Assembly (NCBI GenBank): GCA_029224965.1
Contig: JAQXVO010000023.1
Coordinates: 1-64,000, forward strand
Direction of reading: 5' to 3'
From: Lachnospiraceae bacterium
GTDB taxonomy: Bacteria > Bacillota > Clostridia > Lachnospirales > Lachnospiraceae
Length of the DNA: 64,000 nucleotides
In this document: one piece after another, positions 1,837 to 18,385 of the stretch
Layout of the letters: each line of letters begins with the position of its first letter
Numbering within the stretch: the stretch's first letter is position 1
The notes under the pieces: model-generated
The model's input: only the letters and a program-made list of their open reading frames with translations
Databases searched by the model: none
What the model was told of the DNA's origin: nothing
Position numbers and translations under genes: made by a program

Positions 1837-4800
1837 TCACCCCTGCGCCTGCATGGCTGCAAAGGCTTCCTTGACGGCATTCTCATGAGAAATGCCCTGC
1901 TCCTCAAAGTGGGAAATCGACACAACCATTTTATGATAATCATTCGGAATAATCTTCTTAAAGTAAGGAAGATAGTCCTCAAATTCGTCCATGATCTTCT
2001 GTGCCAGTGCAGAACCGGTTGCCTTGATGTAGTCGCCGATGATGGTCCGGAGTTCGGCCACATCATACTTCTCGGTGACCTCGGTCATAAAGACCATATC
2101 CTTGTTGAGCTTCCGGTAGACATCGTGGTTCATATCCAGGACGTAGGCAACACCGCCGGACATACCGGCTGCCAGGTTCTTTCCGGTCGGTCCCAAGATA
2201 ACAGCACGACCGCCGGTCATATATTCAAGACCGTGGTCGCCGCAGCCCTCGGCAACAGCAGTGGCACCGGAATTTCTTACCAGGAAACGCTCACCTGCGA
2301 TACCGTTGAAATAAGCAGTTCCGCCGGTTGCCCCGTAGAGGGCTACATTTCCGACGATGATATTCTTCGAAGGATCAAAGCCGGCATGGTCCGGAGGCGT
2401 GATGATGATCTTGCCGCCGGACAGACCCTTGCCGACACCGTCGTTGGCATCGCCCTTTAAGGTCAATGTCACGCCGTGAGGCAGAAAGGCGCCGAAGGAT
2501 TGGCCGCCTGCACCCGTGCAGTGGATGGTGAAGGTATCGTCAGCAAGCTCCTGCTCGCCGAAGCGGCGGGTGACCTCGGAACCGAAGATGGTACCGACGG
2601 TCCGGTCGGTTCCCTTGACATTGATTGAGATCTCCTTCTTCTCACCGTTCTTCAGATTGTCCTTGAAGGCAGGTAGGATCTGGCTCTCGTCGACGGTCTT
2701 CTCCAGATGGAAATCGTAGACCTTGTCCGGATTGAAATGAGATTCCTCCCGGCCTGCATAGGTCTGATCCAGGATACCCTCGAGCTTTACGGTCTCGGCA
2801 CGGCGTGTGATCTGGTGAGGCTTGGTTACCAGGCAGTCGGTCCGGCCGACCATCTCGGCAACGGTACGGAAGCCAAGCATGGCCATAATCTCACGAAGCT
2901 CCTGGGCAACGAAGCACATGTAGTTGATGACATGCTCGGGCTTGCCCTTGAAGCGCTTGCGAAGCTCCGGATTCTGGGTGGCGATACCCTGAGGACAGGT
3001 GTCCTTGGAGCAGACACGCATCATAGAGCATCCCAGGGAAACCAGAGGTGCGGTTGCAAAGCCGAATTCCTCGGCACCTAAGAGAGCTGCGATAGCGACA
3101 TCCCGGCCGGTCATCAGTTTCGAGTCGGTCTCCAGAACGACACGGTCACGGAGTCCGTTCTCCATCAGGGCCTGCTGGGCCTCTGCCACACCAAGCTCCC
3201 AGGGAAGTCCGGCATGGTGGATGGAGGAATAGGGAGCCGCACCGGTACCACCGTCATAACCGGAAATCAGGATGACCTGGGCACCGGCCTTGGCAACGCC
3301 GCAGGCGATGGTTCCGACACCGGCCTCAGAAACCAGCTTTACGGAAATCCGGGCCTTGGGATTGGCATTCTTTAAATCATAGATGAGCTCTGCCAGATCC
3401 TCGATGGAATAGATATCGTGATGAGGCGGAGGAGAAACCAGGGAGACACCGGGCGTTGAGAAGCGGGCCTTGGCGACATCCAGGTTGACCTTACGTCCGG
3501 GCAGGTTTCCGCCTTCACCGGGCTTGGCACCCTGAGCCATCTTGATCTGGATCTCATCACCGGAAACCAGGTAGGCTTCGGTGACACCGAAACGTCCGGA
3601 TGCCACCTGCTTAATCCTGGAATTGGTCGGCGTTCCGAAGCGGGCGGAATCCTCACCGCCTTCACCGGTATTGGACCGGCCGCCCAGGGTATTCATAGCC
3701 AGGGCCAGGGTCTGATGGGCCTCCGGAGAGATGGCGCCGTAGGACATGGCTGCGACCTGGAAACGCTTGACAATAGATTCAATGGGCTCGACCTCATCGA
3801 TGGAAACCGGCTTCCGGACCGGATGGAAGGCCATGAGGCCTCTCAAGGTATGAGGCTTGTCGTCATCCACCAGATTCGAGTAATCCTTGAATTCCTTATA
3901 ATCTCTCTTACGGACGGCCTGCTGGAGGGTCACGATGGTCTCGGGACGATACATATGATCCTCTGCTCCGGCACCGGAACGAAGCCGGTGGAAGCCGACC
4001 GAATCCAGGGTCGTGTCCTCGGACAGACCCATGGGATCGAAAGCATGATTGTGGCGGTAGGTAACCGATGCGGCGATGTCTTCGAGTCCGATGCCGCCGA
4101 CCCGGCTGACCGTTCCGGTAAAGTACTTGTCGATGATCTCCTTGGAAAGGCCGATGGCCTCGAAGATCCTTGCCGACTGATAAGACTGAAGGGTCGAGAT
4201 ACCCATCTTGGCAGCGGTCTTTACAATACCCTTGAGGATGGCCATGTTGTAATCTTCAATGGCGGTATGGTAATCCTTGTCGAGGATGCCGAGATCAATG
4301 AGCTCGGAAATGCATTCCTGAGCCAGATAAGGATAGATAGCCCGGGCACCGAAGCCTAAGAGACATGCGAACTGGTGGACATCCCTCGGCTCGCCGCTTT
4401 CGAGAATCAGGGAAACCTGGGTTCTCTTCCTTGTGGATACCAGATGCTGCTCGACTGAGGATACAGCCAGAAGCGATGGAATGGGCACATGGTTTTCATC
4501 GATGGCCCGGTCGGACAGGATGATGATGTTATAGCCCCGCTCGAAGGCCCGGTCGACCGATACATTCAGCTGATCCAGGGCTCTCTCCAGAGACGTATTC
4601 TTATAGTAGACAATGGGCAGGGTTGTGGTCTTGAAGCCCGGCTGATCCAGGGACCGGATCTTCATGATGTCGACACCGGACAGGATGGGGTTGTTGACCT
4701 CAAGTACCCGGCAGTTCTGGCCCTTCTCCTGAAGGAGGTTACCGTCGGATCCAATGTAGACCGTCGTGTCAGTTACGATCTTCTCACGAAGGGAATCGAT

Positions 4801-6360
4801 GGGAGGGTTGGTAACCTGGGCAAAAAGCTGCTTGAAATAATTAAAGAGCGGCTGGTGCTTTTCCGAAAGGACAGCCAGAGGTACATCATGGCCCATGGAC
4901 ATGGTCGGCTCGACACCAGTCTTTGCCATGGTCAGGATCTCGTCATTGACCTCCTCATAGGTATAGCCGAAGACCTTGTAGAGGCGGTCCCGCATGGCCT
5001 GATCGTAGGTCGGGATCTTCTTGTTGGGGATCTTCAGATTTTCCAGATGAAGAAGGTTCATATCCAGCCACTCGCCGTAGGGCTTTCTTTCGGAATAGTA
5101 AGCCTTGACCTCTTCATCGGGGATCATCCTCTGCTTCTTGGTATCAATGAGAAGAATACGGCCCGGCATGAGACGGGACTTCTGGACGATGTGTTCGGCC
5201 GGAATATCGAGAACGCCGACCTCGGATGCCAGGATCAGGCGCTTGTCATCAGTGACATAATAACGGGAAGGACGAAGGCCATTCCGGTCCAGGGATGCAC
5301 CGACGATATCGCCGTCCGAGAAGAGGATGGCTGCCGGTCCGTCCCAGGGCTCCATCATGGTTGCATAATAATGGTAGAAATCCTTCCGCTCCTGGGTCAT
5401 GAAATCATTCTTCTTCCAGGGCTCGGGAATGGTCGACATGACAGCCAGAGGCAGGTCCATGCCGTTCATGTAAAGGAATTCCAGAGTGTTATCGAGCATG
5501 GCCGAATCGGAGCCGTTCCGGTTGACAACCGGGCAGATCTTATCCATCTCATCCTCGAGAACCGGAGACTCCATGGTCTCTTCACGAGCCAGCATACGGT
5601 CTATATTTCCTCGGATGGTATTGATCTCGCCATTGTGGGCGATCAGACGGTAAGGATGGGCTTTCTCCCAGCTGGGTGTGGTGTTGGTCGAGAAACGGGA
5701 ATGGACGATGGCGATGGCACTCTCATAATCCTTGTCGTCGAGGTCCGGATAGAAGAGACGGAGCTGGCCAACCAGGAACATACCCTTATAGACGATGGTC
5801 CGGGAGGACAGAGAACATACGTAAGTCTCATCGGCGCTCTGCTCGAACTCGCGGCGGGTCACATAGAGCTTGCGGTCGAAGGCGATGCCCCGCTCCACGC
5901 CCTCAGGTCTCCGAACGAAGCCCTGAGAAATATAGGGCATGCTGTCAAGTGCTACCTGGCCGAGGATACCGGGATTCGTGGGTACATCACGCCAGCCTAA
6001 GAATTCCATGCCGTTCTTTTCTGCGATGACCTGGAACATACGCTGCATCATCTGCCGCTTCATCCGGTCCTGGGGGAAGAAGAACATGCCGATACCGTAA
6101 TCCCTGGCCTCGCCGAGATCAATATCACGTTCTTTCATGATTTTACTGAAGAACTTGTGGGAGATCTGGAGAAGAATTCCGACACCGTCACCGACCTTGC
6201 CGCTGGCGTCCTTGCCGGCACGGTGCTCCAGCCGTTCCACGATGTGAAGCGCGTCGTCCACTGTCCGGTGCTCTACCCGGCCGTCGATATTGACCACTGC
6301 GCCGATACCGCAGGCATCATGTTCTCTCTCATTATAGAGAAGCTCAGGTTTCTGATTCAT
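1837..6360 (-). CDS. gltB: Glutamate synthase, large (alpha) subunit
   Basis: 1507 aa; N-terminal class II amidotransferase (CGIGAVV), FMN-binding central domain, GXGXG C-terminal domain. Confidence 0.96.
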   Translation of the reverse strand: MNQKPELLYNEREHDACGIGAVVNIDGRVEHRTVDDALHIVERLEHRAGKDASGKVGDGVGILLQISHKFFSKIMKERDIDLGEARDYGIGMFFFPQDRMKRQMMQRMFQVIAEKNGMEFLGWRDVPTNPGILGQVALDSMPYISQGFVRRPEGVERGIAFDRKLYVTRREFEQSADETYVCSLSSRTIVYKGMFLVGQLRLFYPDLDDKDYESAIAIVHSRFSTNTTPSWEKAHPYRLIAHNGEINTIRGNIDRMLAREETMESPVLEDEMDKICPVVNRNGSDSAMLDNTLEFLYMNGMDLPLAVMSTIPEPWKKNDFMTQERKDFYHYYATMMEPWDGPAAILFSDGDIVGASLDRNGLRPSRYYVTDDKRLILASEVGVLDIPAEHIVQKSRLMPGRILLIDTKKQRMIPDEEVKAYYSERKPYGEWLDMNLLHLENLKIPNKKIPTYDQAMRDRLYKVFGYTYEEVNDEILTMAKTGVEPTMSMGHDVPLAVLSEKHQPLFNYFKQLFAQVTNPPIDSLREKIVTDTTVYIGSDGNLLQEKGQNCRVLEVNNPILSGVDIMKIRSLDQPGFKTTTLPIVYYKNTSLERALDQLNVSVDRAFERGYNIIILSDRAIDENHVPIPSLLAVSSVEQHLVSTRKRTQVSLILESGEPRDVHQFACLLGFGARAIYPYLAQECISELIDLGILDKDYHTAIEDYNMAILKGIVKTAAKMGISTLQSYQSARIFEAIGLSKEIIDKYFTGTVSRVGGIGLEDIAASVTYRHNHAFDPMGLSEDTTLDSVGFHRLRSGAGAEDHMYRPETIVTLQQAVRKRDYKEFKDYSNLVDDDKPHTLRGLMAFHPVRKPVSIDEVEPIESIVKRFQVAAMSYGAISPEAHQTLALAMNTLGGRSNTGEGGEDSARFGTPTNSRIKQVASGRFGVTEAYLVSGDEIQIKMAQGAKPGEGGNLPGRKVNLDVAKARFSTPGVSLVSPPPHHDIYSIEDLAELIYDLKNANPKARISVKLVSEAGVGTIACGVAKAGAQVILISGYDGGTGAAPYSSIHHAGLPWELGVAEAQQALMENGLRDRVVLETDSKLMTGRDVAIAALLGAEEFGFATAPLVSLGCSMMRVCSKDTCPQGIATQNPELRKRFKGKPEHVINYMCFVAQELREIMAMLGFRTVAEMVGRTDCLVTKPHQITRRAETVKLEGILDQTYAGREESHFNPDKVYDFHLEKTVDESQILPAFKDNLKNGEKKEISINVKGTDRTVGTIFGSEVTRRFGEQELADDTFTIHCTGAGGQSFGAFLPHGVTLTLKGDANDGVGKGLSGGKIIITPPDHAGFDPSKNIIVGNVALYGATGGTAYFNGIAGERFLVRNSGATAVAEGCGDHGLEYMTGGRAVILGPTGKNLAAGMSGGVAYVLDMNHDVYRKLNKDMVFMTEVTEKYDVAELRTIIGDYIKATGSALAQKIMDEFEDYLPYFKKIIPNDYHKMVVSISHFEEQGISHENAVKEAFAAMQAQG

Positions 6361-6376: not shown

Positions 6377-6486
6377 AAAAAAAGGCGTCTGCCAGCAGAC
6401 CTTCTTACGAAGATCTTCCAGCAGACGCCTTTGTCTGTACTCTATCGTGTTGGATAGAGTTTACATCCATAGAGGACATCTGTCAA
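6377..6486 (-). promoter_or_regulatory. gltB leader: promoter plus intrinsic-terminator attenuator with AAAGGC hexaloop hairpin
   Basis: Minus strand TTGACA-17-TAAACT; CAGAC-AAAGGC-GTCTG hairpin (plus 6422-6437) overlaps the 5' arm of a 12-bp terminator stem AAAGGCGTCTGC/GCAGACGCC followed by a T run, about 17 nt upstream of the start codon. Confidence 0.8.
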
Positions 6487-6679: not shown

Positions 6680-8269
6680 TCACTTACCACTGTCACCATA
6701 GTTGGAAAGCACACGGGCGGACGGATCATTGACGTCCTTTAAGCCATCCCAGGTCTTGTTGGGCATCCAGAAGTCCTTGACCATGGCCGACTGACCCGGA
6801 TAGTACTTCTCGAAGATTTCCCTATAGAGAAGCGATTCCTTGGTGAAAGGACGGGCGTGATCGTACTTCATCCGCTTTTCTTCATATTCCTCGTCGGTAT
6901 AGAAGCCTTCCGCATAATCTGCCAAATCGTCCTTCAGGGAGTGGCCGACGGCATCGGAAAAGGCTGCCTTTTCCCGCATCAGAATATCTTCGGGAATCAG
7001 ATGATCCTCTTCAAAGGCATGACGGAGGAGGTATTTGCCCTTGTTGTAGCGGTTGAGCTTCTTCTCGGGATCAATGGACATGACATAGCGGACGAAGGCC
7101 AGATCACCGAAGGGAACCCGGGCTTCCAGGGAGTTTACGCTGATGCAGCGGTCCGCCCTGAGAACATCATACATATGAAGCTCGCGGATCCGCTTCTCGG
7201 CTTCCTTCTGGAACTCAGCCGCATTGGGAGCAAAGTCCGTATACTTGTAGCCGAAGAGCTCATCCGAAATCTCACCGGTCAGGAGAACCCGGACATCGGT
7301 GTTCTCATGAATCCACTTGCAACAGAGATACATACCGATCGAGGCCCGGATGGTCGTGATGTCGTAGGTTCCCAGCGCCTTGATGACCGGCTCCAGGGCA
7401 TTGATGACATCGTCTCTCGAGATAATGACCTCGTGATGGTTGGATCCGATGTATTCAGCAACCTCTCTTGCATACTTTAAGTCGATGGCATCGATATCCA
7501 TGCCGATGGCGAAGGTTTCCAGAGGCTTCTTGGTCAGCTTGGAGGAAATGCCGCAGACCAGAGAAGAATCCAGTCCTCCGGAAAGGAGGAAGCCAACCGG
7601 GGCGTCGGCGTCCATTCTCTTCTTCACACCGGACACAAGACGGTCATGAATATTTCTTGAAATGGTATCCATGTCGTCATAGGAAACCCGGCGGACCTCC
7701 GCCGGATCATAGTAGGTCACAAAGGCGCCGTCCTTGTAATAGGATCCCGGAGGGAAGGGAAGAATCTCTCCCTGACAAATGGAAACCAGTTCCTTGGGCT
7801 CGGACGCAAAGACAATGCAGCCGTCTGCGTCATAGCCGTAGTAAAGGGGACGGATTCCGATGGGATCCCGGGCAGCCACGTAGCTGCCAGAGGATGCATC
7901 ATATAAAACCAGGGCAAATTCCGCATCCAGTTCGCGGAACATGTCACATCCCAGCTCCCGGTAGAGGGGGAGAAGGATCTCGCAGTCCGAATCGGACGCG
8001 AAACGATATCCCTCACCTTCGAGCTTTTCCTTCATGGGACGGAAGCCATAGATCTCTCCGTTGCAGACCAGCATATCCTGATCCAGGGTAAAGGGCTGCA
8101 TGCCGCTTGCGGTCAGGCCCATGATGGCCAGACGGTTGAAGCCCATGAGTCCTGCCGCATTGGACAGGACCCTGCTGTCATCGGGTCCTCTGGAGGTCGT
8201 GACAGCCAGAGCTTCCTGAAACTTCGCCGGATCCGCCTTGGGGTTGGTCCAGACTAAAATCGAACACAT
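6680..8269 (-). CDS. asnB: Asparagine synthase (glutamine-hydrolysing)
   Basis: MCSILVW class II GATase N-terminus, SGGLDSS PP-loop; 11 nt downstream of glnN. Confidence 0.92.
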   Translation of the reverse strand: MCSILVWTNPKADPAKFQEALAVTTSRGPDDSRVLSNAAGLMGFNRLAIMGLTASGMQPFTLDQDMLVCNGEIYGFRPMKEKLEGEGYRFASDSDCEILLPLYRELGCDMFRELDAEFALVLYDASSGSYVAARDPIGIRPLYYGYDADGCIVFASEPKELVSICQGEILPFPPGSYYKDGAFVTYYDPAEVRRVSYDDMDTISRNIHDRLVSGVKKRMDADAPVGFLLSGGLDSSLVCGISSKLTKKPLETFAIGMDIDAIDLKYAREVAEYIGSNHHEVIISRDDVINALEPVIKALGTYDITTIRASIGMYLCCKWIHENTDVRVLLTGEISDELFGYKYTDFAPNAAEFQKEAEKRIRELHMYDVLRADRCISVNSLEARVPFGDLAFVRYVMSIDPEKKLNRYNKGKYLLRHAFEEDHLIPEDILMREKAAFSDAVGHSLKDDLADYAEGFYTDEEYEEKRMKYDHARPFTKESLLYREIFEKYYPGQSAMVKDFWMPNKTWDGLKDVNDPSARVLSNYGDSGK

Positions 8270-8279
8270 AAGAATCCTC

Positions 8280-10385
8280 CTATCTCAGAGAAAACATCAT
8301 CTCTTCGTAAGTCGGATAATTCAGATAATCGGAAGGAATCTCTGCTTCTGCTGCATCAATATAGCTTCTTACATCTGCCATATCCTGAAGGATCACGTCA
8401 TGATAGTATCTTGCTTTCTTCAGGCTGTCGGTCTCTCCTTCTGCTGTCTTGGTATCCTTGGCAAGCTTCTTTAAGCCGCTTGTGATTCCGCTGCCGTCCT
8501 TGGCAAGCTCATCGACAAGCTCGGTCTCCATATCGGTATCGATATCCTTGGAGAGTTCCTTCTTGGCCAGAGCTTCGTCTGCAAGATCGGAACTGTAGGA
8601 AACCAGAGCCGATCTGACATCCTTCTTGATCATATCCTGCATGGTCAGAGACTCGATGTGGATGGCCTTGGCGTAGTTCTCCAGGTTGATCTCATAACGG
8701 GCTTGAATCTCAGATGCGTTATAGATATGGAACTTCTCGAAGAGGGCTACATTCTTCTCTGCGATAAAGGCAGGCATAGCATCCGGAACACTCTTCAGAT
8801 TGTAAAGGCCTCTTGCCTCTGCCTTCTCAACCCAGTCTTCTGCATAGCCGTTGCCGTTGAAGAGGATCTTGTGATGCTCTTTCAGAAGGGCCTGAAGATG
8901 AGCCATGATGGCGGTCTCCAGCTGATCCTTGGGGGTACCCTCGAGGGACTTGCGGATCTCACGGAGAGAATCTGCAACGGCAGTGTTCAGAATGATGGCC
9001 GGATCTGCTACAGAGACAGAAGAGCCCGGCATACGGAACTCGAACTTGTTGCCGGTGAAGGCAAAAGGTGAGGTCCGGTTACGATCGGTGGTGTCCTTGG
9101 TCAGAGTCGGCAGAACCTTGGCTCCGATATCCATCAGAGTATGCTTTGCATCCTCAGGAGTCTGGCCCTTCTCGATGGCATCGAGGATCTGGGCCAGCTC
9201 ATCGCCGACGAAGATGGATACAACAGCGGGAGGTGCTTCGTTGGCGCCCAGACGATGGTCGTTTCCGGCGGTGGCAACACTTGCACGCATCAGATCTGCA
9301 TATTTATCAACGGCTGCAATAACGGCAACCAGGAATACCAGAAACTGGGTATTCTCAGCCGGTGTCGTGCCCGGCTCCAGAAGGTTTTCACCGGTATCGG
9401 TGCCCATGGACCAGTTGACATGCTTGCCGGAACCGTTGACGCCGTCGAAAGGCTTCTCGTGAAGGAGGCAGGCCATGTTATGACGGTCAGCGACCTTCTT
9501 CATGATCTCCATGGTCAGCTGGTTGTGATCTACAGCGATGTTACTCATCTCAAAGACCGGAGCCAGCTCGTGCTGAGCCGGTGCAACCTCGTTATGCTTG
9601 GTCTTTGCCGGTACGCCCAGCTTCCAGAGCTCCTGATCCAGGTCATGCATAAATTCGGAAACTCTCGGCTTTAAGACGCCGAAGTAATGGTCTTCCATTT
9701 CCTGACCCTTGGGAGCCGGTGCTCCGAAGAGGGTCCGTCCGGTCAGAACCAGATCCTTACGGGACAGGTACATGTCCTTATCAATAAGGAAATATTCCTG
9801 CTCGGAACCGATCGTGGTATCCACGTGCTTGACATCGGGCTTTCCGAGGAAATGAAGCATGTGAACGGCTTCATGATTCAGAGCGTCCATGGAACGAAGC
9901 AGGGGAGTCTTCTTATCCAGAGATTCGCCGGTGTAGGAGCAGAATGCTGTCGGAATATAGAGCGAACCATCCTTAACGAAGGCAGGTGATGAAGGATCCC
10001 ATGCTGTATAGCCGCGGGCTTCGAAGGTGGCACGGATGCCGCCGGAAGGGAAGCTGGATGCGTCCGGCTCGCCCTTGACCAGTTCCTTGCCGGAGAAGTT
10101 CATAATAATATTGCCTTTTTCATCCGGATTGATGAAGCTGTCGTGCTTCTCGGCAGTAAGACCTGTCATGGGCTGGAACCAGTGGGTGAAATGAGTTGCA
10201 CCGCGCTCGATTGCCCATTCCTTCATGGTTGCTGCAACCGTATTGGCCACGGTCAACTCCAGAGTGGTTCCATTATCGATGGTTTTCCGCACCGCTTTGT
10301 AAACATCCTTAGGAAGACGTTCCTTCATGACTTTGTCATTGAAGACCATGCTTCCGTAGATTTCCGGGACATTGATCTGTTCCAT
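8280..10385 (-). CDS. glnN: Glutamine synthetase type III
   Basis: MEQINVPEIYGSMVFND...; about 700 aa GSIII with FTHWFQPMTG and VNGSGKHVNWS motifs; start trimmed from ORF 10541 to the ATG at 10385 after AAGGAGCAGGTT. Confidence 0.93.
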   Translation of the reverse strand: MEQINVPEIYGSMVFNDKVMKERLPKDVYKAVRKTIDNGTTLELTVANTVAATMKEWAIERGATHFTHWFQPMTGLTAEKHDSFINPDEKGNIIMNFSGKELVKGEPDASSFPSGGIRATFEARGYTAWDPSSPAFVKDGSLYIPTAFCSYTGESLDKKTPLLRSMDALNHEAVHMLHFLGKPDVKHVDTTIGSEQEYFLIDKDMYLSRKDLVLTGRTLFGAPAPKGQEMEDHYFGVLKPRVSEFMHDLDQELWKLGVPAKTKHNEVAPAQHELAPVFEMSNIAVDHNQLTMEIMKKVADRHNMACLLHEKPFDGVNGSGKHVNWSMGTDTGENLLEPGTTPAENTQFLVFLVAVIAAVDKYADLMRASVATAGNDHRLGANEAPPAVVSIFVGDELAQILDAIEKGQTPEDAKHTLMDIGAKVLPTLTKDTTDRNRTSPFAFTGNKFEFRMPGSSVSVADPAIILNTAVADSLREIRKSLEGTPKDQLETAIMAHLQALLKEHHKILFNGNGYAEDWVEKAEARGLYNLKSVPDAMPAFIAEKNVALFEKFHIYNASEIQARYEINLENYAKAIHIESLTMQDMIKKDVRSALVSYSSDLADEALAKKELSKDIDTDMETELVDELAKDGSGITSGLKKLAKDTKTAEGETDSLKKARYYHDVILQDMADVRSYIDAAEAEIPSDYLNYPTYEEMMFSLR

Positions 10386-10467: not shown

Positions 10468-10555
10468 AAAAAAGGCGCCTTGGACACGGTATGCGTATCC
10501 AAAGCGCCTTTGCTTTGTTGTGGGAATTGTAGTTCATTCACCCGGCCCTTGTCAA
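10468..10555 (-). promoter_or_regulatory. glnN leader: promoter plus intrinsic-terminator attenuator with AAAGGC hexaloop hairpin
   Basis: Minus strand TTGACA-18-TACAAT; CAAAGC-AAAGGC-GCTTTG hairpin (plus 10500-10517) overlapping a 14-bp terminator stem AAAGGCGCTTTGGA/TCCAAGGCGCCTTTTTT. Confidence 0.83.
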
Positions 10556-10713
10556 TGGTTTTTTCTTTTTTTTACAATTTTTAATAATTTACACGAAATC
10601 CAATCCGGTGTATATTTAGGTATATGTTTATCATTCAAAGAATACTGTCCGCCCGACCGCGAGTGCTGACAGACAGGATGAACTTCAGATCGTCAGAAAG
10701 TGTTGGCAAAGGT

Positions 10714-10762
10714 GTCGTCAGCGTGCAGGGGTTCTTGCCCCTTTTTCGCTGACGGCTTTTTT
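10714..10762 (+). promoter_or_regulatory. pyrG leader intrinsic terminator (attenuator)
   Basis: GTCGTCAGCG/CGCTGACGGC 10-bp stem with inner GGGG/CCCC hairpin, followed by TTTTTT, about 33 nt upstream of the pyrG ATG. Confidence 0.78.
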
Positions 10763-10794: not shown

Positions 10795-12408
10795 ATGATC
10801 AAGTACGTATTCGTAACAGGCGGCGTTGTCTCCGGCCTCGGCAAAGGAATTACAGCAGCCTCTCTGGGACGCCTCTTAAAGGCCCGGGGATACCGTGTCA
10901 CCATGCAGAAATTTGATCCCTACATCAATGTGGATCCCGGCACCATGAACCCCATCCAGCACGGCGAAGTCTTCGTCACAGACGACGGCACGGAGACCGA
11001 CCTGGATCTGGGCCACTATGAGCGTTTCATCGACGAATCCCTTGACCATAACGCCAATGTCACCTCCGGTAAGATCTACTGGTCCGTTCTCAACAAGGAG
11101 CGGCACGGCGACTACGGCGGAGGCACCGTACAGGTCATTCCCCACATCACAAACGAGATCAAGTCCCGCTTCTACCGGAGCGAGGATCCAAAGGAAGACC
11201 GGATCGCCATCATCGAGGTCGGCGGTACGGTCGGTGATATCGAGAGTCAGCCCTTCCTCGAGGCCATTCGTCAGTTCCAGCACGATATCGGAAGAGAGAA
11301 CGCCATCATGATCCATGTGACTCTCATCCCCTATCTCCGCGTCTCTCAGGAAATGAAGACCAAGCCGACGCAGATGTCCGTAAAGAAATGTCTGGAAATC
11401 GGAATTCAGCCGGATATCCTGGTCTGCCGGACCGAATATCCTCTGCCCCAATCCATGAAGGACAAGATTGCCCTCTTCTGTAATGTCCAGAGCGATCACG
11501 TGATTCAGAACCTGGATGCTCCGTCTCTCTACAGCGTTCCTCTTCTTATGGAAAAGGAAAACCTGGCCGGAGCAGTCCTCGAATGCCTGAATCTTCCCAA
11601 CCCGGAGCCGACCGGCTTAAAGGAATGGGAAGAAATGGTAGACCGCGAGCATCATCCCAAGCAGGAAACCGAGATCGCCATTGTCGGTAAGTACATTACC
11701 CTCCATGATGCCTATCTCTCCGTTGTCGAAGCCCTGGCCCACGGCGGCATTGCCACCCAGACCAAGGTTCATATCCGCTGGGTGGATTCGGAAGAGGTTG
11801 AGAAGCAAGGTGCCGATGCCCTCCTGAACGGTGTCTCCGGAATTCTGGTTCCGGGCGGCTTCGGAAACCGCGGTACCGAGGGCATGATCATGGCAGCAAG
11901 CTATGCCAGAGAGAAGAAGATCCCTTACCTCGGCATCTGCCTCGGCATGCAGATGGCAGTCGTTGCCTTCGCCAGAGATATCCTGGGTTATCACGATGCC
12001 AATTCGACCGAATTCGCACCTGATACCCTGCATCCGGTCATCGACCTCATGGCATCCCAGAAGGATATTACCAACCTGGGCGGAACCATGAGACTGGGCG
12101 CTTACCCCTGCGTTCTGGACAAGGATTCTCTTTCCTATAAGCTTTACGGTTCAACGGATATCTCCGAGCGTCACCGTCACAGATATGAGTTTAACAACGA
12201 CTACAGAGACATCATGAATCAGAAGGGCCTCTGCACCGTAGGACTTTCCCCGGATGAACGAATTGTGGAAATGGTCGAATACAAGGATCATCCTTTCTAC
12301 ATCGGCACCCAGGCCCATCCGGAATTCAAGTCACGGCCCAACAAGGCCCATCCGCTCTTCCGCGGACTGGTTCAGGCTGCTGTAGATTATCAGAATCAGA
12401 AGGACTGA
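10795..12408 (+). CDS. pyrG: CTP synthase
   Basis: [20 protein letters not shown]-terminus, GATase motif GICLGMQ. Confidence 0.97.
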
Positions 12409-12481
12409 TTCTGACCATGCGATCCTCTGGTTCATATTGAATCAGAGGATCATTATATATAATCACAAGATGGAGGCTGTC

Positions 12482-13771
12482 ATGGGTTACTACACAAAAG
12501 AAGACATTTTAAAAACAATTGAGGATGAGGACGTCAAATTTATCCGTCTGCAGTTTGCAGACTTCTTCGGCGTTCTTCGGAATATTGCCGTTACCGGAGG
12601 CCAGATTGAGAAGGCCTTGAACGGCAGATGCTCCATTGACGGTTTCCATATCCGCGGAGCCAGGGCCCTTGGCTACCGTCAGATCTATCTGAAACCGGAT
12701 CTTGATACCTTTGCCATCCTGCCCTGGAGACCCCAGCACGGAAAGGTAGCCCGTTTCCTTTGTGACCTCACCGACCGGGAAGGAAATCTCCTGCCGGAAA
12801 GTCCCCGGACCATTCTTCGCCAGCAGCTGAAACGTGCCGAGGATAAGGGCCTCTTCATTGAACTGAATCCGGAATGCGAGTTCTTCCTCTTTGATACCGA
12901 TGAAAACGGACTTCCGACCAACCAGACCAATGAGCAGGCCAAGTACCTTGATATGGCACCTCTGGACTCCGGAGAAAATGCCCGCCGGGACATCATCTTT
13001 GCCCTGGAGGATCTGGGCTTTGAGGTCGAGTCCTCCCATCATGAGGATGCCCCTGCCCAGCATGCGATTTCCTTTAAGAAGGCAACCGGCATCCGTATGG
13101 CAGACCGAATTCTGACCCTTCGGAACACCGTCCGGACCATCGCTGTCCGCCACGGCTTCTATGCCACCTTCATGCCAAAGCCCCGGGCAGACCTGTCCGG
13201 CTCCGCCATGGCTCTGAATGCCTCCTGCCAGATGATCGCAAAGGACTGGTTTACCGATCCTTCCGATCCCAATGGCTTAAGCGAAGACGGCAAGCACTTT
13301 ATCGCCGGCCTTCTGGCCCATATGCGGGGTGCCTGCGCCATCGCCAATCCTATCGTAAATTCCTACAAGCGGTCTATCTTCCGCTTCAGCGATCCCCGGG
13401 GAATCTTCTGGTCTCCCAGCGATTACCGGGCTTCGGTAACCGTATCAAGAAACGAGGATGACCGGACCGTCATCGAATGGGAGCTTCCGGACGGCGCCAC
13501 CAATCCTTATCTCAACATTGCCTACCTTCTGGCCGCAGGCCTGGAAGGCATTGAAAAGAAACTGCCTCTGCCCCAAGCAGACTCTCAGGGCGAGCCCCTT
13601 CCCGAAACCCTGAATGACGCCCTGAAAGCCTTTTCCGAAGACGATTTCTTCCGACAGCTTTACGGTGACAATTACGCATCGGTCTACATTTCCGAAAAGA
13701 AAGCGGAATGGGAGTCCTATGCCAAGGAAGTTACCGACTGGGAGATCCGGGAGTATTTAGGCCGGATCTGA
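12482..13771 (+). CDS. Glutamine synthetase family protein, type I fold, active-site residues degenerate
   Basis: MGYYTKEDILKTIEDEDVKFIRLQFADFFG resembles GSI N-termini; ATG at 12482 after GGAGG; several GSI catalytic motifs altered (see findings). Confidence 0.88.
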   Translation: MGYYTKEDILKTIEDEDVKFIRLQFADFFGVLRNIAVTGGQIEKALNGRCSIDGFHIRGARALGYRQIYLKPDLDTFAILPWRPQHGKVARFLCDLTDREGNLLPESPRTILRQQLKRAEDKGLFIELNPECEFFLFDTDENGLPTNQTNEQAKYLDMAPLDSGENARRDIIFALEDLGFEVESSHHEDAPAQHAISFKKATGIRMADRILTLRNTVRTIAVRHGFYATFMPKPRADLSGSAMALNASCQMIAKDWFTDPSDPNGLSEDGKHFIAGLLAHMRGACAIANPIVNSYKRSIFRFSDPRGIFWSPSDYRASVTVSRNEDDRTVIEWELPDGATNPYLNIAYLLAAGLEGIEKKLPLPQADSQGEPLPETLNDALKAFSEDDFFRQLYGDNYASVYISEKKAEWESYAKEVTDWEIREYLGRI

Positions 13772-13792: not shown

Positions 13793-14353
13793 TTGAGTTT
13801 TATTTTGTTGGCTTTTCCGAACGAAACGACATCCGAAAAGATTCGTACTCTTCTCCTTCGCCACGGCTTTGATGACGTCCGGATCGTATCCGGCGGCGGC
13901 GAGGCCCTCCGGGAGATGTCCGAGGACAATACCGGACTCCTGGTCTGTCCGGTCCGCATGAAGGACACCGACTATGTCCACGTTCTTCACCGGATGAGCC
14001 CTTTCTACGAGATACTCCTTCTGGATTCGCCCCGGCACATTTCAGAACGTAAGGAAGAGGATGTCATGGCCCTGTCGGCCCCCATTCATTCCGCTGATCT
14101 CATCGAGACCGTGGACATGATGCTGGGCGGACTGGAATATGTCTATCGTCAGGAAAAGAAGAAAGAAAAGAAAAACAAGAAGCCCAAGCCCCGGTCCGCC
14201 GAAGATCAGAAGCTTCTGGACGAGGCCAAGCTTCTTATAATGGAACGAAACCACATGTCGGAGGCCGAAGCCTTCCGCTTTATGCAGAAGAATTCCATGG
14301 ATATGGGCCGGAGCATGGTGGAAACCGCGCAGATGATACTGGCCTTCCGCTGA
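13793..14353 (+). CDS. ANTAR-domain RNA-binding antiterminator with degenerate receiver domain
   Basis: C-terminal AKLLIMERNHMSEAEAFRFMQKNSMDMGRSMVETAQMIL matches the ANTAR pattern; N-terminal receiver-like region has no phospho-acceptor Asp; TTG start after AAAGGAGAG. Confidence 0.9.
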   Translation: MSFILLAFPNETTSEKIRTLLLRHGFDDVRIVSGGGEALREMSEDNTGLLVCPVRMKDTDYVHVLHRMSPFYEILLLDSPRHISERKEEDVMALSAPIHSADLIETVDMMLGGLEYVYRQEKKKEKKNKKPKPRSAEDQKLLDEAKLLIMERNHMSEAEAFRFMQKNSMDMGRSMVETAQMILAFR

Positions 14354-15658: not shown

Positions 15659-16873
15659 ATGTATAAAATTAACACCAACTACCAGAAGCTGCCCGGCAAC
15701 TATCTCTTCAGCACCGTTGCCAAGAAGGTTGCTGCCTACAAGGAAGCCCATCCCGAAGCTGACCTGATTCGGCTCGGCATCGGCGATGTCACTCTGCCCC
15801 TGGTACCCACCGTCATTGACGCCCTTCATAAGTCCGTCGATGAAATGGGCCACGCCGAGACCTTCCACGGCTATTCTCCGGACCTTGGCTATGCCTTCTT
15901 AAGAGACACCCTGGTAGAAAAGGTCTACAAGCCCCTTCATGCAGAGGTTGCTTCCGATGAGATCTTCATTTCCGATGGTGCCAAGTCCGATTCCGGCAAC
16001 ATCCAGGAGCTCTTCAGCGAAGACAATATCATCGCTGTCACAGATCCTGTCTATCCGGTCTACATTGATTCCAATGTCATGGCAGGCCGCTGCGGAACCT
16101 ATGACAATGCCACCGGCAAGTGGTCCGATGTCGTCTACATGCCCTGCGTAAGAGAGAACAACTTCGTTCCGGACTTCCCCAAGCGGACACCGGACATCAT
16201 CTATCTCTGCAACCCCAACAACCCGACTGGAACCACACTGAACAAGAGCGTCCTTCAGGACTGGGTTGACTATGCAAACCGCGAGCATGCCCTGATCATC
16301 TATGATGCCGCTTACGAATCCTATATCACAGAGGACGACGTTCCTCACTCCATCTACGAGTGCGAGGGAGCACGGACCTGTGCCATCGAGATCCGGTCCT
16401 TCTCCAAGAACGCCGGTTTCACCGGTGTCCGTCTGGGCTTCACCGTCGTTCCCAAGGATCTGGTTCAGAACGGCGCCAGCCTCCACGATATGTGGGCAAG
16501 ACGGCACGGAACCAAGTTCAACGGAGCGCCCTACATTGTTCAGAGAGCCGGCGAAGCCGTCTACTCCGACCAGGGTCAGAAGGAAGTCAAGGAAGAGGTT
16601 GCCTACTACATGAGAAATGCCCATACCATCAAGGCCGGCCTTGCAGATGCAGGCTTTGAGGTCTACGGCGGCATCAACGCTCCATACATCTGGCTGAAGA
16701 CACCGGAAAAAATGACTTCCTGGGAATTCTTCGACTACCTTCTCGACAAGGCTCACGTTGTCGGCACTCCGGGCGCAGGCTTCGGACCGAGCGGTGAAGG
16801 CTACTTCCGGCTGACTGCATTCGGCTCCTACGAGAACACTCTGGCAGCTCTGGAGAGGATCAAGAAGCTCTGA
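15659..16873 (+). CDS. dapL: LL-diaminopimelate aminotransferase
   Basis: MYKINTNYQKLPGNYLFSTVAKKV...; YLCNPNNPTGT and SFSKNAGFTGVRLG PLP motifs. Confidence 0.95.
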   Translation: MYKINTNYQKLPGNYLFSTVAKKVAAYKEAHPEADLIRLGIGDVTLPLVPTVIDALHKSVDEMGHAETFHGYSPDLGYAFLRDTLVEKVYKPLHAEVASDEIFISDGAKSDSGNIQELFSEDNIIAVTDPVYPVYIDSNVMAGRCGTYDNATGKWSDVVYMPCVRENNFVPDFPKRTPDIIYLCNPNNPTGTTLNKSVLQDWVDYANREHALIIYDAAYESYITEDDVPHSIYECEGARTCAIEIRSFSKNAGFTGVRLGFTVVPKDLVQNGASLHDMWARRHGTKFNGAPYIVQRAGEAVYSDQGQKEVKEEVAYYMRNAHTIKAGLADAGFEVYGGINAPYIWLKTPEKMTSWEFFDYLLDKAHVVGTPGAGFGPSGEGYFRLTAFGSYENTLAALERIKKL

Positions 16874-17067
16874 TGTCTGCAAACGCTGAAAGGGAAGATT
16901 ACGAGAATCAGATGTCTGCAAAGGCCGAAGGCGAAGCTTTTGAGGCTCAGATATCTGCAAAGGCCGAAGGCGAAGCTTTTGAGGCTCAGGTATCTGCAAA
17001 GGCCGAAGGCGAAGATCATGAGGCTCGGATATCTGCAAAGGCCGAAGGCGAAGATCATGAGGCTCGG
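16873..17067 (+). repeat. Five tandem 39-bp in-frame units encoding xSAKAEGExxEAx
   Basis: Read directly: atgtctgcaaa..., atgtctgcaaaggccgaaggcgaa..., atatctgc..., gtatctgc..., atatctgc... each 39 bp. Confidence 0.95.
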
Positions 17068-17958
17068 TTGTCTGATAGAACAAGAGGAGCAATCCTTACG
17101 ATCTTCGGCGGCATCTGCTGGGGTCTGTCCGGGTCCATGGGCCAGTATCTCTTCACAAGAGAAGGCATGGATGCCCGCTGGCTGACCCCCATCCGCCTTT
17201 TTATCGCAGGCCTGATTCTCTTTGTCTACTGCCTGATTCGTGAGAAAGAACTGCTCTTTGATATCGTAAAACACAAGCGGACTCTGATTCTCCTCTTCGT
17301 TTATGGAATCCTGGGCGTGTCCTTCTGTCAGCTCACTTATTTCATGACGATCCAGTACTCCTCTGCCGGAGTCGGAACCATCATGCAGGACCTGTCCCCG
17401 GTCATGATCCTTGTCATGACCTGCATCTTTAATAAAAGGCGGCCGCGGTTTCTGGAAATTGCCAGCATCTGCCTGGCCTTTGTCGGGGTCCTTCTGATCA
17501 TCACCCACGGCAACCTGAAGCAGCTGGCCTTTCCGCCCATCGCCATTGTGACCGGTGTCCTCTGCGCCATGGGGGTCTGCGTCTATAACCTGATCGCGCC
17601 GTATCTTACCAACCACTATCCAGTTACGGTCCTCCAGGCCTGGTCCTTTCTGGCCGGCGGCGTCATTGTCGGTCTGGTCACTGGCGGCTTCCGGATTCAC
17701 TACAGCCCTTCACCAGTGGGAATCTTCGGCATCTTCTTTGTCGTTGTGGTCGGAAATATCCTGGCCTTCACTTCTTACATCAAGGGCGTCAGCCTGATCG
17801 GGCCCAGCCGCGGCATCCTCTACGGATTCTCCGAACCCGTAACCGCTGCCCTGATCTCGACCCTGGCCTTCGGATCCGCCTTCGGCTTCTGGGATCTGGT
17901 CGGCTTTGCCTGCATCTTCCTCATGCTCTTTCTGATTTCGAAGAAGAAGACGGTGTGA
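16873..17958 (+). CDS. DMT/EamA-family transporter with N-terminal tandem 13-aa repeats
   Basis: Hydrophobic multi-TM protein from about residue 70 (GAILTIFGGICWGLSGSMGQYLF); start overlaps the dapL stop (TGATG). Confidence 0.85.
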   Translation: MSANAEREDYENQMSAKAEGEAFEAQISAKAEGEAFEAQVSAKAEGEDHEARISAKAEGEDHEARLSDRTRGAILTIFGGICWGLSGSMGQYLFTREGMDARWLTPIRLFIAGLILFVYCLIREKELLFDIVKHKRTLILLFVYGILGVSFCQLTYFMTIQYSSAGVGTIMQDLSPVMILVMTCIFNKRRPRFLEIASICLAFVGVLLIITHGNLKQLAFPPIAIVTGVLCAMGVCVYNLIAPYLTNHYPVTVLQAWSFLAGGVIVGLVTGGFRIHYSPSPVGIFGIFFVVVVGNILAFTSYIKGVSLIGPSRGILYGFSEPVTAALISTLAFGSAFGFWDLVGFACIFLMLFLISKKKTV

Positions 17959-18030
17959 AATATAAGGCATTGCATAAGAATTCCAAAGCCGTTGAAAGGG
18001 ATTTACTTGATTTGGGTAGTTTAAGGGAAT

Positions 18031-18385
18031 CTGGACAACGATTTTGAAGGAAATTTCTATTTCCGTTGTGTTTTAAAATGGCTTAGTGAATCTGGACAAC
18101 GATTTTAAAGGAAATTTCTATTTCCGTTGTGTTTTTACAGCGGCTTATGGATTTAATACAGCGATTTCGAAGGAAATCTTGAATCCCGTTGTATAATTTC
18201 CGAGTTTTCTCAGATTTGTACAGCGATTTTGAAGAAAATCTCCAATCCCGTTGTATGACTACCCGATTCTCCTGGTTTTATACAGCGATTTTGAAAGAAA
18301 TTTTAAATCCCGTTGTATGACAGCCGATTTCCTGGTTTCATGGATCGATTTTGAAGGGAAATCCAAATCCCGATCCATATTCCCT
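18031..18385. repeat. Array of six imperfect palindromic repeat units
   Basis: Units ACAACG/ACAGCG/GGATCG-ATTTTGAAGGAAAT...-CCGTTGT/CGATCC recur about every 61-66 bp. Confidence 0.88.

Follow-up and report, generated by a model that had tools for sequence, protein, structure and literature searches.

The locus considered here raises the question of what a glutamine synthetase (GS) that has lost much of its active site is kept for when its gene lies directly in front of that of an ANTAR antiterminator. The gene occupies positions 12482..13771 on the forward strand of the window (the whole stretch of DNA that was analysed, 64,000 nucleotides in length), starts with an ATG that has GGAGG on its 5' side and encodes 429 amino acids with a type I GS fold that is catalytically degenerate (hereafter pseudo-GS). 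The gene of the ANTAR antiterminator, which carries a pseudo-receiver, begins with a TTG start 21 nt 3' of it on the same strand (13793..14353). With a probability of roughly two in three, we hold that the pseudo-GS is a GS-derived sensor controlling the adjacent ANTAR protein, which in turn would set a nitrogen regulon by antitermination.

The pseudo-GS matched the type I GS of PDB entry 7tdp over its whole length (HMMER, E = 3.4e-104) and contains the Pfam domains PF03951 and PF00120. Its AlphaFold2 model (pLDDT 84, pTM 0.87) was superposed on B. subtilis GS (4lnn) with a TM score of 0.92; in the model, the GS fold, composed of the beta-grasp and catalytic domains, is intact. Residues were assigned in Salmonella GS numbering from the HMMER alignment to 7tdp and from a MAFFT alignment, and seven catalytic replacements were found: E220A, N264S, H269A, E327S, R339Y, R344T and R359E. 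The metal ligands E129, E131, E212 and E357 are present, whereas E220 and H269 are replaced; D50, G265 and R321 are likewise retained. Hence, each metal site lacks one of its ligands, and the flap base and three Arg residues of the active site are gone. In addition, Arg62 of feedback inhibition has become Ala, and DGSS reads DGFH. The score against the GlnA equivalog of NCBIfam (TIGR00653) was 296.9 bits, below the cut-off of 429.15. Judged by its metal ligands, flap Glu, R339/R344/R359 and equivalog score, the pseudo-GS would not be placed among active type I GlnA enzymes. The first-pass annotation had described intact GSI motifs next to altered catalytic sites in a probable pseudoenzyme, and this description holds: every motif that it quoted was found in the 12482-13771 reading frame, each change stands in register with 7tdp in both alignments, and none of the lost residues was present elsewhere in these alignments. 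Its list of changes was correct but incomplete, as R339Y, R344T, Arg62Ala and the retained residues were missing from it. An intact type I GS was not found in the 80%-complete assembly of the source genome.

The protein could still be a GS-related ligase acting on another substrate, the ANTAR gene merely sharing its operon. Ligases of this kind with altered substrate pockets exist (GlnA3/GlnA4, GGputSyn, GmaS), and sub-threshold NCBIfam matches to gamma-glutamylputrescine synthetase were obtained. However, ATP-dependent gamma-glutamyl ligases need most of E220, H269, E327, R339, R344 and R359, all of which are lost here, with both metal sites and the active-site Arg residues affected. Among the ANTAR-linked GS of relatives, moreover, the residues found at the catalytic positions are many and varied, a pattern unlike that of a switch to a single new substrate. 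Another ligase activity was, therefore, judged quite improbable.

The selection acting on the gene bears on whether it is retained for any function. Between the window and its nearest distinct relative (L006, 90% identity), a dN/dS of 0.066 was obtained for the pseudo-GS, and the same pairing gave 0.033 for glnN and 0.030 for pyrG. The reading frames are full-length in all members, and within the window's clade the altered sites have invariant residues of their own (DGxH, GSAM, the W of IxWE and Y at R339), W333 and H56 being among them. Because purifying selection is strong, the pseudo-GS is, as far as sequences can tell, a maintained pseudoenzyme selected for something besides catalysis. A decaying glnA relic retained merely through its position in the operon would fit the loss of catalysis, as well as the presence of type III GS (GSIII) in every checked genome with a degenerate type I GS; the omega of 0.066, the full-length frames and the clade-specific residues in the altered site (GSAM, W333, H56) largely refute it already, so that it is considered highly improbable. 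Neutral decay as such was ruled out by the selection test.

The gene neighbourhood is rich in nitrogen functions. The earlier statement that a type III GS gene lies 2 kb away was found to be right: glnN is located at 8280..10385 on the minus strand (PF12437/PF18318/PF00120; start chosen by inspection). It is directly followed, after a 10-nt gap, by what is, judged by homology, presumably asnB, for a glutamine-hydrolysing asparagine synthetase (6680..8269, minus strand), and the same strand carries gltB, presumably for the large subunit of glutamate synthase (1837..6360). On the plus strand, the presumed CTP synthase gene pyrG (10795..12408) lies upstream of the pseudo-GS, and the stem-loop between the two (12421..12451, plus strand) is probably the pyrG terminator. 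A second GSIII gene in the source genome (L070, C12:37065-38081) has no leader hairpin of the type described below. Further downstream in the window, a DMT-type transporter (16873-17958, plus strand) begins with an N-terminal extension made up of about five near-identical repeats of 13 residues (xSAKAEGEAFEAQ, at 16873-17100), which is unusual for the family; 3' of its gene, at about 18020-18160 on the plus strand, a 45-nt stretch is present in two near-identical tandem copies (gaatctggacaacgatttt..aaggaaatttctatttccgttgtg), each of which can be folded.

The product of 13793-14353 contains a C-terminal ANTAR domain (PF03861, 4.4e-16, 58.8 bits), and the residue equivalent to EutV Lys149 is invariant in the ANTAR proteins compared. 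Its AlphaFold2 model (pLDDT 92.6) had RNA-bound EutV, Rv1626 and AmiR as best matches. No further ANTAR protein was found in the 80%-complete source assembly. At the position of the receiver phospho-Asp, the window protein has Pro and most relatives have Gly or another residue; Asp was seen in a single case (L033). It differs in this from EutV, the receiver of which can be phosphorylated, and resembles AmiR, which has a pseudo-receiver and is not phosphorylated (PMC3369936, PMC3795266). Since the phospho-acceptor is absent, the input to the ANTAR protein must arrive by another route, as in the pairs AmiR/AmiC and NasT/NasS.

The adjacent GS is the favoured candidate for this input when relatives are compared. 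In a survey of relatives from the genus up to the order, together with 80 loci of named genomes, the GS gene was followed directly by the ANTAR gene almost without exception. ANTAR adjoins GS in 29 of the 30 relatives that have it, the majority of which contain just one ANTAR gene. A phylogenetic test for a clade of pseudo-GS tied to ANTAR genes had been suggested by the first-pass annotation. In the relatives compared, adjacency is near-invariant and catalytic loss is concentrated in the linked GS. When 123 ANTAR-linked GS were scored at 11 core catalytic or ligand positions, at least one change was found in 80, versus 1 of 37 GS without ANTAR directly downstream, nearly all of the latter being from elsewhere in the phylum (Fisher p = 1e-12, with sequences treated as independent, so that the count on the tree is the better guide). 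The flap Glu is altered in 44 of the 123 linked GS and in 0 of the 37 others; on a tree built without the catalytic columns, its state changed at least 17 times. E131 and G265 are retained in all 123 linked GS and R321 in 122 of them. The most degenerate clade, with 100% support, is that of the window itself, comprising Lachnospiraceae rumen genomes, Drancourtella and Sellimonas, and milder changes were seen in Blautia, Fusicatenibacter, Lacrimispora, Eisenbergiella and others. Five loci from other classes of the phylum (L240, L241, L244, L253, L254) combine an intact GS with an ANTAR-linked paralogue that has E327V, L or T. The active site is intact in all genomes that have a type I GS and no GSIII (G040, G045, G046, G050). 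Many ANTAR-linked GS of relatives are, from their residues, apparently fully catalytic; a sensor role thus does not require catalytic loss.

Some variants of the arrangement were also recorded. In the five clusters from other classes, two ANTAR genes are accompanied by two or three paralogous GS genes, of which one is degenerate at the position of the flap Glu, and asnB or gltB lies alongside in some. A second, more diverged family of ANTAR-linked GS-like proteins (L042-L048) has a shortened flap region and a variable E327, and in two genomes of the window's genus (G004, G008) it replaces the pseudo-GS.

A sensor or scaffold need not have ANTAR as its partner; the pseudo-GS could instead regulate, for example, GSIII or PII. 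GSIII is adjacent in the window, and binding of GS to PII/GlnK is reported from other organisms (PMC10651883). Against this, the linkage seen across families is with ANTAR, even where GSIII is distant, and an ANTAR protein with a pseudo-receiver has to get its input from some protein. Such a partner is, therefore, regarded as unlikely, and control of the ANTAR protein is preferred.

If the ANTAR protein acts by antitermination, its targets should be recognizable in RNA leaders. ANTAR sites require the first loop position to be A and the fourth to be G (PMC3369931, PMC3369936). In the glnN leader, the putative antiterminator hairpin CAAAGC[AAAGGC]GCTTTG, with a hexaloop having A1 and G4, is located at 10500..10517 on the minus strand and overlaps an intrinsic terminator at 10468..10511 of the same strand (stem 10511-10471, followed by a T run). 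A predicted promoter, TTGACA-18-TACAAT (10526..10555, minus strand; 11 of 12 matches to the consensus), ends 8 nt before the hairpin. The gltB leader has the corresponding hairpin CAGAC[AAAGGC]GTCTG (6422..6437, minus strand), which overlaps an intrinsic terminator at 6378..6430 on that strand. In both leaders, a strong terminator uses the hairpin loop together with the 3' strand of the stem as its own 5' strand, and the two leaders would thus qualify by sequence as ANTAR targets with an A1/G4 hexaloop overlapping a terminator. These two sites (10517-10468 and 6437-6378) had escaped the first-pass annotation. The classical two-hairpin ANTAR motif (P1 + P2) was also searched for; few pairs occur in the window, they lie outside these leaders and their number is near chance. 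The leaders have one hairpin, which in glnN starts 8 nt after the predicted -10 element, in keeping with one hexaloop as the minimal ANTAR site, as has been proposed (PMC8934654). EutV-type systems are alike in the ANTAR domain, the A1/G4 hexaloop, the 3' strand overlapping the terminator and the nitrogen targets (PMC3369931). However, the EutV leader has two hairpins, P1 and P2, as do the eut, nas and ami leaders in general, whereas those of the glnN/gltB type have one, right behind the promoter. No family for the glnN/gltB leader was found in Rfam.

A strict search gave 51 leader hairpins in 1.88 Mb, compared with a mean of 0.9 in locally shuffled sequence. When sites were chosen by loop, terminator and promoter only, with the 5' stem ignored, at least four consecutive pairs flanked the loop in 25 of the 38 distinct sites. 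All five stem pairs covary; 75% were paired, compared with 59% for shuffled sequence and 28-50% after sliding, and the covariation score was reached by 0 of 500 shuffles. In relatives, the element was found 5' of glnA-ANTAR, glnN, gltB, pyrG and asnB.

A covariance model of the leader (R1) gave four matches above noise in the source genome. The first two are the glnN leader (E = 6e-9), the sequence of which was in the training set, and the gltB leader (E = 1.6e-6); both are in or near that set. The third (E = 2.4e-5) is independent of training and precedes a PII-like gene with an amino-acid permease; the fourth (E = 0.003) has two elements in tandem and belongs to an APH-like kinase, these gene names being assigned by inspection. 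The tandem units of hairpin and terminator before the kinase (L156, about 1460-1560; C13:13740 in the source genome) look as if two antiterminations were needed. Before pyrG in the window, a weak candidate, TGGC[AAAGGT]GTCG with a terminator (10704..10762, plus strand), was matched with E = 2.2 and is not claimed as a target; a strong version precedes pyrG in many relatives. In other genomes, the best matches lie 5' of amtB, purF, glnA, gltB, glnN and pyrG. Matches with E < 1e-3 were obtained in 17 of 30 genomes with ANTAR and in 0 of 7 without it (p = 0.009); in the R1 search, some ANTAR-GS genomes (G009, G012, G018, G021) gave no match.

The position of the leaders bears on whether the linked GS, intact or degenerate, are simply ordinary ANTAR-regulated products, in which case the linkage would reflect autoregulation of a target and the pseudo-GS would have some other role. 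Many of the relatives whose GS is catalytic indeed have the element in front of the glnA-ANTAR operon itself. In the window's clade, however, no element was found directly before the pseudo-GS, and the pair stays together with the elements at glnN and gltB, a layout shared by five further genomes of the genus (L052-L056). Unlinked GS, moreover, do not lose catalysis, and autoregulation alone is given a low probability. The shift of targets to glnN and gltB is what would be expected if the old enzyme became a sensor and GSIII took over the chemistry.

The sensor that we favour may work as follows. The pseudo-GS retains the GS fold and E131, G265 and R321 near the end of the pocket for the alpha-amino acid, and would no longer synthesize glutamine. 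In Salmonella GS, these three residues hold the alpha-amino and alpha-carboxylate groups. They are among the listed glutamate-binding residues (PMC10799026). Their retention, with H269, E327 and R359 lost at the other end, suggests that an amino acid is still held and no longer converted. The ligand would most likely be glutamine, with glutamate and 2-oxoglutarate as other candidates, and the liganded pseudo-GS would keep the ANTAR protein off RNA by contact. At low glutamine, the ANTAR protein would be free, nitrogen scarcity being assumed to mean readthrough, and could bind nascent leaders at their 5' end, where the single hairpin with the AAAGGC hexaloop lies. The stabilized hairpin would block the overlapping terminator, and glnN-asnB, gltB and the PII/permease operon would be expressed, with GSIII supplying the GS activity. 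The opposite sign may also apply, with the ANTAR protein held by the apo form and set free by a signal of scarcity, for example 2-oxoglutarate. The joint action with the ANTAR protein suggested by the first-pass annotation is well backed by comparative data on linkage, repeated loss, selection, the pseudo-receiver and the leaders, but the ATP sensing that it also named looks unlikely because R339, R344 and one ligand of each metal site are gone. In Bacillus GS, Arg62 and the flap Glu couple glutamine to the binding of GlnR/TnrA (PMC9249791, PMC10799026). These glutamine contacts (Arg62 and flap Glu304 in Bacillus numbering) are A and S in the pseudo-GS, so that glutamine sensing and the contact would need a different geometry.

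Beyond the window, it is about an even bet that GS-ANTAR pairs across the Clostridia have repeatedly shed catalysis to give dedicated GS-derived sensors of a single-hexaloop glutamine regulon. Even the seemingly intact GS in such pairs may be mainly sensors, since the majority of the genomes concerned have GSIII. To our knowledge, nitrogen sensing in many gut and rumen Clostridia is poorly understood, and a concrete circuit is offered here that consists of a sensor, an RNA-binding effector, an RNA switch and a list of targets. It is present in cultivable genera (Blautia, Fusicatenibacter, Anaerobutyricum, Drancourtella). If the proposal is true, an enzyme has turned stepwise into a pure sensor, and intact, half-eroded and dead versions are all available.

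Parts of this arrangement have been described before. Already in 2012, nitrogen genes, those of GS and GOGAT included, were predicted to be under ANTAR control (PMC3369931, PMC3369936). In the glnA-nitR locus of solventogenic clostridia and the GS-ANTAR locus of C. thermocellum, GS lies beside an ANTAR/NitR gene with GOGAT nearby, as stated in a passage of PMC4676874 that cites Fierro-Monti 1992. There, the GS is taken as active, and neither a pseudoenzyme nor a single-hexaloop regulon was reported in the papers found. A search of the open-licence literature turned up no catalytically dead GS with such a role, and a dead GS as an enzyme-derived sensor for an ANTAR antiterminator, thus, appears to be unreported. 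Lengsin and other non-catalytic proteins likewise have the GS fold without GS catalysis; however, lengsin (2j9i, matched at 6.6e-9) is a eukaryotic lens protein without a regulator partner and is remote in sequence from the pseudo-GS.

In Bacillus, Paenibacillus and Staphylococcus, the feedback-inhibited type I GS senses glutamine and holds GlnR/TnrA (PMC9249791). As in the window, the regulator is encoded in or near the GS operon, and the logic proposed here for the pseudo-GS matches that of the glutamine-bound GS of Bacillus. However, the GS of that system is active and is partnered by a DNA-binding repressor of the MerR type, whereas the window has a dead GS that has lost Arg62 and the flap Glu, and an RNA antiterminator.

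The sensors AmiC and NasS derive from solute-binding proteins, whereas the pseudo-GS is of enzyme origin. In the AmiC-AmiR and NasS-NasT pairs, the ligand-binding protein is encoded beside the ANTAR regulator and sequesters it (PMC3369936, PMC3795266). A conserved adjacent partner gene is likewise found in the GS-ANTAR pairs, for which we infer both the binding of a ligand by the partner and the complex between the two proteins.
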